Shown here: piece after piece, positions 565-5,522 of the stretch | Layout of the letters: each line of letters begins with the position of its first letter | How positions within the stretch are numbered: position 1 is the first letter of the stretch | Origin: Dehalococcoidia bacterium | GTDB taxonomy: Bacteria; Chloroflexota; Dehalococcoidia; Lucifugimonadales; UBA3495 | DNA length: 5,581 bases | Direction: 5' to 3' | Assembly: GCA_002746355.1 (NCBI GenBank) | Contig: NVWX01000001.1 | Location: 18,733-24,313 of the forward strand | Notes under the pieces: generated by a model | Told to the model about the DNA's origin: nothing | Seen by the model: the letters and a program-made list of their open reading frames with translations, nothing else | The model's database searches: none | Translations under genes and position numbers: made by a program

Positions 565-594
565 TTGGCATGTCATTTCTGAAGTCTGTATACT
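565..594 (+). promoter_or_regulatory. Probable sigma70-type promoter of nadE
   Basis: TTGGCA at 565-570 and TATACT at 589-594 are separated by 18 bp, a good housekeeping promoter. The predicted transcript begins about 600-602 and reaches the nadE ATG at 621 after a short leader that contains GAGG at 611-614. The promoter overlaps the upstream in-frame ATG at 570, which argues that this ATG is not the real start. Confidence 0.6.
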
Positions 595-620
595 CGACAA
601 AAGCCCACACGAGGATTTGC

Positions 621-2402
621 ATGGCACGGACCTTCCGCCTGGCCTTGGCCCAGATCAACCCCACCGTGGGAGATATCACCGGGAACACTGCCAAGATTCT
701 GGACTATCTGGAACGCGCCCGGGAAGCCCAGGCGGACCTCGTCGCTTTCCCCGAACTGGCTATCACCGGCTACCCTCCCGAAGACCTTCTTTTCAAGAAA
801 TCATTCCTGACCGACAACGTGGCCGCCATGGAAAAAGTGGCTGCGGCGTCCCAGGGCATCGCGGTGGTCTTAGGCTACGTGCATATAGTGTCGCTGGAGC
901 GGCAATCGGAAGAAGTGGGGCCGCAGGTCACCAACGCTGCCGCGCTATGTTACGACGACAGGCTGATCGACACCTATCACAAGATTTTCCTCCCCAACTA
1001 CGGCGTCTTCGACGAACAGCGTTACTTCCAGAGGGGCTCGGAATGCCCGGTCTACACCATCGGGGGAGTCGCCGTCGGCGTCAACATCTGCGAAGACATC
1101 TGGTACCCGGTGGGGCCCACCACGGTCCAGTGCCAGGCCGGTGCTGAACTGATCGTCAACATCAACGCATCGCCCTTCCACGCGGGAAAGCGGGCCTTCC
1201 GGGAAGACATGATCGCCCAGCGGGCCTTGGAGAACGGCCTGACGGTCGCCTACGTGAACACGGTGGGCGGGCAAGATGAACTGGTCTTTGACGGCGGCAG
1301 CATGATCTGTGACTCCACCGGTGGCCTGGTTGCGCGAGGACCAGCTTTCCAAGAATCCCTTTTGATAACGGACCTGAGCTTCAAGGAGCCTTCTGCCAGA
1401 CCGAAACATAAACCGGCGAACGCCGGCGCCGGCGCCGGCGTGGGCACGCCCAAAAACGTGACTGTGTCGGAGGCAGGCACCGAAACCAAGCCCTCGCTGG
1501 AAGCTCAGACCATCTTAGTCGGCATGGACGGCCCAGAGGAGATCTACCGGGCCTTGGTCATGGGCACCGGCGACTATCTGCGTAAGGTGGGTTTCACCAA
1601 GGCGCTGATCGGCCTGTCGGGCGGCGTGGACTCGGCGCTGACAGCTACGGTGGCCGTGGACGCGCTGGGCAAGGAGAACGTGATTGGGATCACCATGCCC
1701 TCCCGCTACTCGTCCGAAGGAAGCATCAGCGATTCAAAGAAGCTGGCCGGGAACCTGGGCCTGGACCTGTGGGAGTTGCCCATCGAGCCCGCCCACCAGG
1801 CCTTGACCGACATGCTGGCAGAGCGTTTCAAGGGCACCGAGGCAAATGTGGCCGAGGAGAACGTTCAGGCCCGCGTCCGGGGCAACGTTCTGATGACTGT
1901 GTCCAACAAATTCGGCTGGATCGTGCTCACCACCGGTAATAAGTCAGAGATGGCCATGGGCTACGCCACGCTGTACGGCGACATGGCTGGCGGCTTCGCG
2001 GTGCTGAAGGACGTGCCCAAGACCACGGTCTACGAGCTATGCCGCTGGCGCAACGGGCAGGGCCAGGCTTTTGGGACCATGGATGGCGTGATTCCCGTCG
2101 CGATCCTCGACAAACCGCCCAGCGCGGAGCTTCGGGAGGGCCAACTGGACGCCGACAGCCTGCCTCCCTATGAGGTGTTGGACCCGGTGGTGGAGGCGTA
2201 TGTGGAGAATGACCTAGGCTACCAGGAGATGGTGGCCCAGGGATTCGACCCTCAGGTCGTCCGGCAGGTCATTGCAGCCGTGGACCGCAACGAATACAAG
2301 CGCCGTCAGGCCCCGCCCGGCGTCAAGATCACCCACCGCGCCTTCGGCAAGGACCGCCGCTTCCCCATAGTGAACCGCTACCGGCAACACGAGGGTGGGT
2401 AG
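621..2402 (+). CDS. nadE: Glutamine-dependent NAD+ synthetase
   Basis: Catalyses the last step of NAD+ biosynthesis: ATP-dependent amidation of deamido-NAD+ using ammonia released from glutamine, in the cytoplasm. The protein has 593 residues and two domains. The N-terminal nitrilase-type glutaminase has the expected Glu-Lys-Cys triad: E45 in Phe-Pro-Glu-Leu-Ala, K121 in Tyr-His-Lys-Ile-Phe-Leu-Pro-Asn-Tyr, and C157 in Val-Asn-Ile-Cys-Glu-Asp-Ile-Trp. The C-terminal synthetase has the PP-loop Ser-Gly-Gly-Val-Asp-Ser at 333-338, Thr-Gly-Asn-Lys-Ser-Glu at 438-443, and a Gly-Asp-Met-Ala-Gly-Gly-Phe block at 453-459. It ends with the usual Arg-Arg-Phe-Pro-Ile-Val-Asn-Arg-Tyr. The length fits the shorter bacterial two-domain form. 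The two domains are joined by a low-complexity Ala-Gly linker. The ATG at 621 is preferred over the one at 570 because it has GAGG 6 nt upstream, begins the conserved Leu-Ala-Gln-Ile-Asn-Pro strand, and lies downstream of a good promoter. It stops with TAG. Confidence 0.97.
   Translation: MARTFRLALAQINPTVGDITGNTAKILDYLERAREAQADLVAFPELAITGYPPEDLLFKKSFLTDNVAAMEKVAAASQGIAVVLGYVHIVSLERQSEEVGPQVTNAAALCYDDRLIDTYHKIFLPNYGVFDEQRYFQRGSECPVYTIGGVAVGVNICEDIWYPVGPTTVQCQAGAELIVNINASPFHAGKRAFREDMIAQRALENGLTVAYVNTVGGQDELVFDGGSMICDSTGGLVARGPAFQESLLITDLSFKEPSARPKHKPANAGAGAGVGTPKNVTVSEAGTETKPSLEAQTILVGMDGPEEIYRALVMGTGDYLRKVGFTKALIGLSGGVDSALTATVAVDALGKENVIGITMPSRYSSEGSISDSKKLAGNLGLDLWELPIEPAHQALTDMLAERFKGTEANVAEENVQARVRGNVLMTVSNKFGWIVLTTGNKSEMAMGYATLYGDMAGGFAVLKDVPKTTVYELCRWRNGQGQAFGTMDGVIPVAILDKPPSAELREGQLDADSLPPYEVLDPVVEAYVENDLGYQEMVAQGFDPQVVRQVIAAVDRNEYKRRQAPPGVKITHRAFGKDRRFPIVNRYRQHEGG
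1421..1440 (+). repeat. GCCGGC hexamer repeat within the nadE linker
   Basis: Three tandem copies of GCCGGC (1422-1439) encode alternating Ala-Gly at residues 268-273, in the linker between the glutaminase and synthetase domains. The unit is self-complementary, so the tract can form a hairpin and could vary in copy number by slippage. A change of whole units would keep the reading frame. Confidence 0.75.
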
Positions 2403-2682: not shown

Positions 2683-3381
2683 CTACCAAACATCCCCCAC
2701 ATCGCCCCGGTCGGAGAGACCCAGGTTTGCCCAGTAGCCTTTGCGGTTGTCCTTAACCACCTCCAGCCGGTGGACCCATTCGGCCCATTGGTAGCCGTAC
2801 TTGCGTGGTATCGCCAGGCGCAGCGGGAACCCAAACTTGGGCAGTTCTTCCCCGTTTGTGGTGCTGGCCAAGAAGGCCTCTTTGTCCCGCAAGTCCTTTA
2901 TCTCCAATGAGACGTAATAACCATCGAGGCAGTGGAATACCACCCGTTGGGCCCGTTCGCTGACGCCGGCCATGTCCAGTAGCTGGGACACCGACACTCC
3001 GGTCATGACCGTGTTGTTGCGGAACCCGCCCACGCAGTCCATGCGCACCCGCCGGTCCACCAGGTGCAGGGCTTTCAACTCGGGCCAGGACAGCGACAAA
3101 GGACGGTCCACCGCTCCGTCCACGATCAGGTGGAAGTCGTTGATGTCGATAGTCGGGAAACTCCAATAAGCTAGGCTACCCAGCTCTTTTATGGCGGTGA
3201 TTTCAGTTTGTTCGTCAATCTTAATGAGCCGCTTTTCCCACAGCACGGTCTTGATGAACAGGAAGGTCACGCCCCGGCGCGCGCGGAAGGCAATCATCTT
3301 CCAAAGGAACGCTAAGAAGCGCAGCAGGGTGGTGTTCCCGCCGACGGTGATCAACGCTTTCCGGTAGGCGCGAGCTATCAA
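2683..3381 (-). CDS. Sulfite-oxidase-family molybdopterin-dependent oxidoreductase
   Basis: A 232-residue protein with the oxidoreductase molybdopterin-binding domain seen in sulfite oxidase and MsrP/YedY. The domain runs from about residue 75 to the end: Phe-His-Leu-Ile-Val-Asp-Gly at 83-89, Trp-Pro-Glu-Leu-Lys at 99-103, the Met-Asp-Cys-Val-Gly-Gly motif with C116 as presumed molybdenum ligand, Gly-Phe-Pro-Leu-Arg-Leu-Ala-Ile-Pro at 184-192, and a Lys-Tyr-Gly-Tyr-Gln-Trp-Ala-Glu-Trp-Val block at 194-203. The first ~50 residues are basic with hydrophobic stretches, but there is no twin-arginine export signal and no haem domain, so a cytoplasmic or membrane-associated site is more likely than Tat export. 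The start codon is TTG (complement of 3379-3381), supported by AGGAG 6 nt upstream; the next internal Met is residue 29. The substrate is not known. It is divergent from the DUF3179 gene and stops with TAG. Confidence 0.88.
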   Translation of the reverse strand: MIARAYRKALITVGGNTTLLRFLAFLWKMIAFRARRGVTFLFIKTVLWEKRLIKIDEQTEITAIKELGSLAYWSFPTIDINDFHLIVDGAVDRPLSLSWPELKALHLVDRRVRMDCVGGFRNNTVMTGVSVSQLLDMAGVSERAQRVVFHCLDGYYVSLEIKDLRDKEAFLASTTNGEELPKFGFPLRLAIPRKYGYQWAEWVHRLEVVKDNRKGYWANLGLSDRGDVGDVW

Positions 3382-3567: not shown

Positions 3568-4692
3568 ATGGGAGACATAGTCGGCAAATCCAGCGTGATC
3601 ATAATCATAATTTTGGTGGCTCTCGTGGTAGGCGTGATCTTCCTGCCTCAGCTAGGTCAGTTCACGCTGAGATTTGGCGCCGAGACGCTCACCGTCGTCG
3701 ATACGTCGGCCCAACGCACCCCCGATTCAGACGGAACTATCGACCTCAAGATGATTACGATCCTCGGCCGCGAAGGTATCCCGGCGATCTTGGACCCGGT
3801 TTTCGCCAGGCAAGGGGCCGAGAGCAACATGGAACCGGCAGAGAGAGTGATTGGTGTGTCCATCAACGGCGAGAGCCGGGCCTATCCCATCAATCTGATG
3901 TCGCGCCACGAGATAGTCAACGACACTGTGGGGGGCAAGGCCATCGCTGTTACCTGGTGACCCCTCTGCTTCACGGGCATTGTATATGCCCGAGAGATCG
4001 AGGGGAGGGAGCACACATTTGGGGTGTCGGGCAAACTGATCATGAACGCTCTGGTCATGTACGACCACCAGTCGGACACCCTGTGGAGCCAGTTCCTGAG
4101 CCAGGGAGTCAAGGGCCCGCTGCTTAACAAAAAATTGGAGATCGTCCCCGCCGTTCAGACAACCTGGCAACAATGGGTGAACCTGCACCCCGATACTTTG
4201 GTGTTGGACAAACGGGGCAGCTACGGCAGAGACGTTTATGACGGCTACTACGACAACGGGTCGACGGGTGTCATCGGGGAGTCCAACAAGGACCGGCGTC
4301 TGCCCAAGAAAGAACTGGTCATGGGAATGACTGTCTCCGGTTTCGCCAAGGCCTATCCCTTCAGCGCCATCTCTCAGGAATCCGTGATCAACGACCACTT
4401 CGCTGGGGAGGAAGTGGTGATCACCTTTGATCCGACGTCCGAGAGCGGGGCGGCCTTTGTCCGGCGGCTGAACGGCAGAAACCTGACATTTGAGCCGGCG
4501 CCGGGACGGGCTGGGGTGGCGTTGATGCGGGACCAAGAAACCGGCAGCCTGTGGCAGGTGCTGACCGGCCAGGCCGTGGAAGGAGATCTGTTCGGCGAAA
4601 GACTGGAGCGGCTGCCGTCTCACTACTCATTCTGGTTCGCCTGGAGCGACTCCCACCCGCAGACAGAGCTCTATGGGGATGCTACTGGCTAG
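3568..4692 (+). CDS. DUF3179 family predicted selenoprotein (in-frame TGA read as Sec)
   Basis: Read through TGA 3958-3960, this is one 374-residue protein. An N-terminal hydrophobic segment (about residues 10-26) should anchor it in the membrane with the rest outside the cytoplasm. The domain includes Ala-Tyr-Pro at 105-107, Glu-Ile-Val-Asn-Asp-Thr-Val-Gly-Gly before the motif, then Val-Thr-Trp-Sec131-Pro-Leu-Cys134-Phe-Thr-Gly, Phe-Gly-Val-Ser-Gly, Leu-Trp-Ser-Gln and His-Pro-Asp-Thr (207-210). The family normally has Cys where the TGA falls, giving CxxC; here it would be UxxC, and C134 is the only Cys. The C-terminal half (262-369) repeats the domain without the redox pair. The molecular function is unknown; the motif suggests redox or metal chemistry. 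The start is fixed by an in-frame TAA at 3562-3564 just upstream; the GAGGT at 3551-3555 is 12 nt away, rather far. A nonsense-mutated pseudogene is the main alternative, made unlikely by the intact downstream frame and the SECIS-like hairpin. Confidence 0.87.
3958..3960 (+). other. Predicted selenocysteine codon (TGA)
   Basis: This TGA is in frame between Thr-Trp and Pro-Leu-Cys, exactly where DUF3179 proteins have the first Cys of their CPLC motif. It encodes residue 131 if recoded. Sec replacing one Cys of a CxxC pair is the usual pattern for redox selenoproteins. The true stop of the gene is TAG at 4690-4692. Confidence 0.85.
3961..4005 (+). promoter_or_regulatory. Predicted bacterial SECIS element
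   Basis: The stem-loop starts directly after the TGA and lies inside the coding region. Upper stem: CGGGCAT (3974-3980) pairs perfectly with ATGCCCG (3986-3992) around the loop TGTAT (3981-3985), whose second base is G. Lower stem: CCCCTC (3961-3966) pairs with GAGGGG (4000-4005). Between them is a 7/7 internal region in which T3971-A3995 and C3972-G3994 can pair and two G-T wobbles are possible. The apical loop begins 20 nt after the TGA. Known bacterial SECIS elements have a short apical loop with a G in the first two positions, roughly 16-37 nt from the UGA, which this fits. SelB would be the binding factor; its gene is not in the window. Confidence 0.82.
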
Positions 4693-5522
4693 GAGGTCCC
4701 TAGAAATTCGGCGGCGCTGCTGACCCGGCGGCCCCACCACTCCGGGCCTTCCAGCACGTACTTCCACTCTGGGTTCTGCTCGGTGTCACGGAGTCCAGCC
4801 ATGACTTCGCGAAAGACCGGAGCGTCGGCCTCGGCGAACTCGAAGTACCCGACGAAGTCGTAGTTGCCCTGCAGTCCATAGCCTTCCGGGGCGTGGACCA
4901 GCCGGCGGTTGATACTGGGGACGCCCATGGCTGACGCCAGAGCGTGTCCCTTGACCACCATCTTCTCGTTCTCGTCGTAACGTGGCAGGAAGAAACTCTC
5001 CCGGTGGAGAAAGTCCATCTGCCACCATTCGTCGGTCTTGTTCATGGGAGTCACGGCCGCCAGCGGGAATTTCTCGCCCGGTCCGGGCGGCATGGCATGG
5101 GCGTAAGCGAACTCGGACATGGCGTGGCTGGTGTAGCTGCGCGGCCGCATCACCCCGGCCAGTGTCTCAACCGAGCCACCGGCGGCGCTCAACAGATCCC
5201 GGAAACTCGTTTCATAAGCTTTGATTGGGTCTAATGATGCGCACTCCAACCGTATCAACCCGTCTGACTCGGTAACTGCCGTATGGATGATCTGCTGCTC
5301 GGTGGTGAACCCGGCCTCCGCCCGCAACAACTGAAACCGCCCCCGCGCAAACGTCTCCTCCGACGGCGGGCCGTCAACCTCATGCACGTTCTCCAACCCC
5401 CGCCCTAGCAGGTCGATGGCCTCGGCCAGTTCTCCGTCCGGTTGGCCTTCGCCAAGGGTGACGAACAGGAATAGCTGGTGGCCGGTGACGGTGGTGGTCA
5501 TGTTTAGGTCTTGGGGTTCCAT
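4689..5522 (-). CDS. Chlorite dismutase/HemQ-like family protein
   Basis: A 277-residue protein that appears to have two ferredoxin-like halves. The C-terminal half resembles the chlorite dismutase superfamily: Thr-Pro-Met-Asn-Lys-Thr-Asp-Glu-Trp-Trp at 158-167, a helix Glu-Lys-Met-Val-Val-Lys-Gly-His with H193 as candidate axial haem ligand, Gly-Asn-Tyr-Asp-Phe-Val-Gly-Tyr-Phe-Glu-Phe at 219-229, Val-Met-Ala-Gly-Leu-Arg-Asp-Thr-Glu at 240-248, and a final Gly-Pro-Glu-Trp-Trp-Gly. Family members bind haem or coprohaem and act as chlorite dismutases, coprohaem decarboxylases or uncharacterised proteins. I cannot identify the distal Arg or Gln that would separate these, so no activity is assigned. 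No signal peptide is seen. The ATG at 5520-5522 has AAGGA 7 nt upstream (complement of 5530-5534); the Met at residue 8 has none. A weak promoter candidate is TGGAAG/TAATGT (complement of 5576-5581 and 5553-5558). Its TAG stop overlaps the stop of the DUF3179 gene. Confidence 0.68.
   Translation of the reverse strand: MEPQDLNMTTTVTGHQLFLFVTLGEGQPDGELAEAIDLLGRGLENVHEVDGPPSEETFARGRFQLLRAEAGFTTEQQIIHTAVTESDGLIRLECASLDPIKAYETSFRDLLSAAGGSVETLAGVMRPRSYTSHAMSEFAYAHAMPPGPGEKFPLAAVTPMNKTDEWWQMDFLHRESFFLPRYDENEKMVVKGHALASAMGVPSINRRLVHAPEGYGLQGNYDFVGYFEFAEADAPVFREVMAGLRDTEQNPEWKYVLEGPEWWGRRVSSAAEFLGTS

Follow-up and report, generated by a model that had tools for sequence, protein, structure and literature searches.

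A TGA codon located within a DUF3179 gene (codon 131) very likely encodes selenocysteine (Sec), as judged from sequence comparisons. The gene lies in the window, that is, the whole stretch of 5581 bases that was analysed (G000:C12:18733-24313), which belongs to a draft genome of 3.54 Mb in 100 contigs; the source bacterium is likely a relative of the ocean SAR202 bacteria. As a whole, the best explanation, to which a probability of about 0.94 was assigned, is that Sec is present at position 131 of a single 374-residue DUF3179 selenoprotein, in which U131-P-L-C134 would form the reactive centre. The coordinates of the features are collected in Table 1.

Table 1. Features of the window, with positions counted from its first base.
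Feature	Position	Strand	Remarks
NAD synthase gene	570-2402	+	
Molybdopterin oxidoreductase-domain gene	2683-3381	-	
Read-through CDS, proposed DUF3179 selenoprotein	3568-4692	+	374 residues, Sec at 131; one Pfam match (302 bits) spans the TGA
Hydrophobic N-terminal helix, putative membrane anchor	3592-3654	+	Residues 9-29; AlphaFold2 helix 2-30
First repeat, bearing U-P-L-C	3772-4215	+	Residues 69-216, piece modelled alone
TGA codon, proposed Sec131	3958-3960	+	Same column in 118 homologues: 69 TGA, 49 Cys
TGC codon for Cys134, partner of Sec131 in the proposed U-P-L-C redox pair	3967-3969	+	Cys in 205/206 aligned rows
SECIS-like hairpin	3974-3992	+	Stem of 7 bp, 3974-3980 with 3986-3992; loop UGUAU, 3981-3985
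Second repeat, homologous to the first, without the Cys pair	4255-4665	+	About residues 230-366
Chlorite-dismutase-like gene	4689-5522	-	Weak match, below the Pfam cut-off

The reading frame starts with an ATG, contains the TGA as its sole internal stop and continues for 243 sense codons up to a TAG at 4690-4692, the same coordinates as those given in an earlier reading of the DNA made from its letters alone (hereafter, the sequence-only reading). The TGA occupies the position of the first Cys of a WCPLC motif and the second Cys is retained, as had been described there, so that the motif reads W-U-P-L-C and corresponds to the UxxC/T motif of DUF3179 selenoproteins. When the read-through protein was compared with the Pfam DUF3179 profile (PF11376), a match covering all of its 292 positions was obtained (E 4.7e-90, 302.4 bits, curated cut-off 27). 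Since this single match spans the entire profile, the sequences before and after the TGA belong to one domain, and the DUF3179 conservation previously noticed on both sides of the codon was confirmed. Standard ORF calling on the same gene yielded two pieces of 130 and 222 amino acids. Among the 120 database homologues listed, the best 22, which include the window's own ORF, were 217-237 amino acids long with a query coverage of 59-63%, and the seven short database homologues that were aligned all begin downstream of the TGA position. The two ORFs, the single domain and the TGA/Cys column described below support the earlier proposal of one selenoprotein called as two truncated genes.

The codon corresponding to residue 131 was examined in a set of 60 related genomes (the source genome included), 45 of which had DUF3179 matches. 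It was readable in 118 distinct DUF3179 genes from 44 genomes, and was found to be TGA in 69, TGC in 33 and TGT in 16 of them. The expectation of the sequence-only reading that this residue should align with Cys or with other TGA codons thus held in all 118 readable homologues, and residue 131 is consequently the likely reactive residue. In the source genome itself, four of the seven DUF3179 genes carry TGA at the motif (WUPLC, YUPLC, YUTLC and YUIKC) and three carry Cys. A second search gave 80 named loci, recorded as Chloroflexi (with Dehalococcoidia, SAR202, some Anaerolineae and Caldilineae), with TGA in 79 of the 86 placed DUF3179 matches; as its starting sequences were relatives of the window gene and its contigs are partly the same as those of the 60-genome set, the proportion is not a census.

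The draft assembly of the source genome contains many N, with a completeness of 92% and a contamination of 6.9%, and a chance change from TGC to TGA in this one genome, either as a sequencing error or in a pseudogene, had to be weighed. Against this explanation, the TGA recurs at the same codon in the genes of many genomes, including one- or two-contig assemblies (e.g. G035, G038, G040, G045), and another stop (TAG or TAA) was encountered in only 3 of the 118 genes. Moreover, when the gene was aligned without gaps to the three nearest relatives compared (L062, L063, L067), dN was lower than dS before the TGA (0.16-0.49 versus 0.41-1.15) and far lower after it (0.03-0.09 versus 0.69-0.78). An error or a pseudogene was therefore considered extremely improbable, and as a general account it is refuted by the recurrence of TGA at the same column. 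Random stops in close relatives, which would have spoken against the sequence-only reading, were replaced in the data by the conservation of one and the same TGA. On a rapidly built tree of 173 genes, of which 122 are of the Sec and 51 of the Cys type, at least 5 changes of state are required, as compared with a shuffled mean of 44. Near-copies contribute to this gap, long branches were flagged, and the changes are counted without direction.

Three atypical homologues were also observed. A DUF3179 gene of Ca. Lucifugimonas marina (L254; CP046147.1, G060:C1:2387562-2388431) contains two in-frame TGA codons, one at the motif (WUPIC) and the other shortly upstream, where relatives have Gly; the extra codon is perhaps a second Sec, a sign of gene decay or an error. 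In a Sec-type gene of another genome (L128, G009:C14), Arg replaces the second Cys (WUPLR) and the rest of the domain lies in a different frame, perhaps due to decay or to a sequencing error. Finally, in a database homologue with 56% identity (P0024), Arg takes the place of Sec (TWRPLC), one base off TGA.

An in-frame TGA where Cys is expected would also agree with a genome-wide reassignment of TGA to Cys or Trp. TGA nevertheless terminates 53 of the 234 mechanical ORFs of at least 200 amino acids found in 370,809 bases of the source genome, from which it follows that the code is not reassigned there, and no further TGA was detected in the 34,048 DUF3179 domain codons of the 118 genes. Stop usage and the absence of other TGA codons in the domain speak against this explanation, which was rejected and retains practically no probability. 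The scan of the same 370,809 bases for other TGA-interrupted genes returned mostly noise, and the window gene was the sole clear case among the candidates listed.

The selA, selB, selC (tRNA-Sec) and selD genes, for which the sequence-only reading had proposed to search the same genome, were all found. SelB was identified with 347 bits (cut-off 242) and SelA with 549 bits, while selD was recovered in two pieces split by N in the assembly (G000:C45:106196-107117; L026, L027). This selD carries its own in-frame TGA in SHCAGU, the usual Sec position of SelD, and the frame break behind this TGA falls in the N stretch; the SelD of this genome is thus probably a selenoprotein too. Two near-identical tRNA-Sec genes with the anticodon TCA were detected (G000:C87:82055-82147 and G000:C33:755-847; L009, L010), which may reflect either a true duplicate or a contig from a close strain, given the contamination of the assembly. 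Among the 37 genomes with a Sec-type DUF3179 gene, selB was above the cut-off in 33 and tRNA-Sec reached at least 59 bits in 30. The four genomes with no selB above the cut-off are 56-85% complete. Of the seven with no tRNA-Sec at this score, six are 71-88% complete, while the other, G037, possesses selB and, at 92% completeness, is not accounted for in this way. As selB was above the cut-off in 52 of the 60 genomes, its co-occurrence with Sec-type genes agrees with Sec decoding but is a weak test. In 7 of the 80 named loci (L169, L184, L186, L188, L194, L204, L213), selD-like genes were observed about 2 to 5 kb from a TGA-type DUF3179 gene; three of them were checked, and all three were SelD above the NCBIfam cut-off.

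Downstream of the TGA, a SECIS-like hairpin was identified, whose stem starts after 13 nt and whose loop begins 20 nt from the codon. The energy of the 26-nt hairpin is -12.6 kcal/mol with a z value of -4.2, and that of the hairpin by itself -10.8 kcal/mol. According to PMC13188914, a bacterial SECIS (bSECIS) has a loop of 3-9 nt, a stem of 4-16 bp, a G at loop position 1 or 2, a distance of 16-37 nt between TGA and loop and an energy of -7.5 kcal/mol or lower. The window hairpin lies within all these published limits, with its 5-nt loop in which G is second and is followed by U, its 7-bp stem, its 20 nt and its energy below -7.5 kcal/mol, and no difference from that model was seen; some relatives (the UTLC group) have shorter and weaker stems. 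In a search of the window at gathering scores, no Rfam match was obtained.

The conservation of this hairpin was followed in 80 sequences, 77 of them distinct. Its helix was paired in 96.3% of the cells, with two-sided changes in five of the seven pairs, and the covariation amounted to 0.296, as compared with 0.061 for shuffled data (0/500 as high) and at most 0.070 when the helix was slid. A helix of at least 5 bp was present in the tested registers in 67/68 Sec-type genes versus 6/49 Cys-type genes. These fixed registers were picked after the hairpins had been viewed, and the covariation with its shuffle and slide controls is accordingly the safer test. When hairpin stability was compared with that of synonymous recodings (p <= 0.05), 39 of the 68 Sec-type and 2 of the 49 Cys-type genes passed, with 5/30 for the Sec-type genes of the UTLC group. 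With hairpin energy as the only criterion, a strict scan separated the two types partially (32/67 Sec-type versus 5/49 Cys-type genes).

Sec codons usually cause a certain amount of termination, and the TGA could also be a true or regulated stop, at least under selenium shortage; the products would then be an N-terminal piece of 130 residues and, perhaps, a C-terminal piece started separately at GTG 4024. The two ORFs given by ORF callers and the presence of the second piece alone in databases would fit such a stop. In contrast, the TGA is situated within one Pfam domain, in a column otherwise occupied by Cys, it is followed by the covarying hairpin and the sequence is conserved on either side of it. 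A stop in this sense was judged very improbable. For Sec131, the proposed mechanism is that SelB and tRNA-Sec would insert Sec at the TGA through the predicted SECIS hairpin, in such a way that the read-through frame would give one DUF3179 selenoprotein instead of the products of two genes.

The U-P-L-C pair may then be expected to alternate between a selenol/thiol and a selenenylsulfide form. The hydrophobic N-terminal helix would hold the domain at the outer face of the cell membrane, and our best guess is that the protein is an extracytoplasmic thiol or selenol oxidoreductase. A different function, equally compatible with Sec, would be that of a metal site made of U/C-P-L-C and the nearby His114. 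Metal binding by CxxC pairs is common among proteins, and His114, situated 17 residues upstream of the Sec site, is shared by 179 of the 206 aligned rows. On the other hand, among 66 close relatives, all of which keep C/U and C, His114 is replaced by Arg in 10 and by Ile in one, and UxxC families are filed mainly as redox proteins in PMC9312934 and PMC13188914. The metal site was regarded as rather unlikely, and a redox role of the U-P-L-C pair as the preferred one.

Profile comparison revealed that the DUF3179 domain is an internal duplication (E 1.2e-35), of which the first half alone retains the proposed redox pair. For both halves, the structural models predict a Rieske-like beta fold. Rieske [2Fe-2S] proteins (ferredoxins, NirD, PetC3) possess the ligand motif CxH...CxxH, which was found in 23/23 Rieske controls but in 0/220 DUF3179 rows, and the comparison of the DUF3179 and Rieske profiles by hhalign gave no match (probabilities of 0.07% and 0.23%). 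According to the strand order of the models, U-P-L-C seems to occupy a different turn from the Rieske cluster loops, and the equivalent of Rieske box II would be nearer residues 165-175. The idea that U-P-L-C is Rieske box II with its His changed to Cys was dropped, as profile comparison lent it no support. No match to the window protein was found among PDB chains searched by sequence with E up to 10, nor any NCBIfam model at E 0.001.

The genes adjacent to the DUF3179 gene were also inspected in the 15 relatives with flanks, several on short contigs. The molybdopterin gene adjoins it in 2 of these relatives and the chlorite-dismutase-like gene in 5. No functional clue was obtained from the neighbours; genes of the GNAT, RecF-like, Sir2, HAD, class-III aminotransferase and MazG kinds were shared by sub-groups of the loci only.

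The sequence-only reading had tentatively linked the family with names containing '(seleno)protein', and this was right, the family being already in print. DUF3179 (PF11376) appears as a selenoprotein family with the motif UxxC/T in tables of PMC9312934 and PMC13188914, where the entry is credited to the Olavius symbiont paper of Zhang and Gladyshev (2007). Because these two reviews list it, novelty at the family level is low. The window protein shares with the listed family the same Pfam domain, Sec as the first residue of UxxC and the existence of Cys homologues; it differs in that its genome, from a member of the Chloroflexota close to SAR202, holds four paralogues with Sec and three with Cys. 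It is thus a well-supported new member of an already listed selenoprotein family. What is added here is that single genomes hold multiple paralogues of both the Sec and the Cys type and that one carrier is in culture, together with the internal duplication and the predicted clusterless Rieske-like fold. Our literature search retrieved no report on SAR202 selenoproteins, although earlier reports on Chloroflexota selenoproteins may exist. Nor did it retrieve any report on how DUF3179 folds; the word 'Rieske' occurs in neither PMC9312934 nor PMC13188914.

The carrier in culture is Ca. Lucifugimonas marina JH1073, which, according to PMC10444878, is a strain grown in pure culture. Its genome has selB as well as DUF3179 genes of both kinds, some with TGA and some with Cys at the motif, which makes the claim testable by proteomics.

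With these results, two broken gene calls become a single protein, whose close relatives are recorded in databases as fragments, and the predicted fold would provide a first structural idea for DUF3179. Tentatively, DUF3179 could be seen as a duplicated Rieske fold that has lost its cluster and bears a Cys/Sec pair on another loop, with SAR202-type Chloroflexota keeping several paralogues. If this picture, which is possible though still short of probable, is true, ocean Chloroflexota would hold a widespread and misannotated set of cell-surface Sec/Cys DUF3179 proteins.
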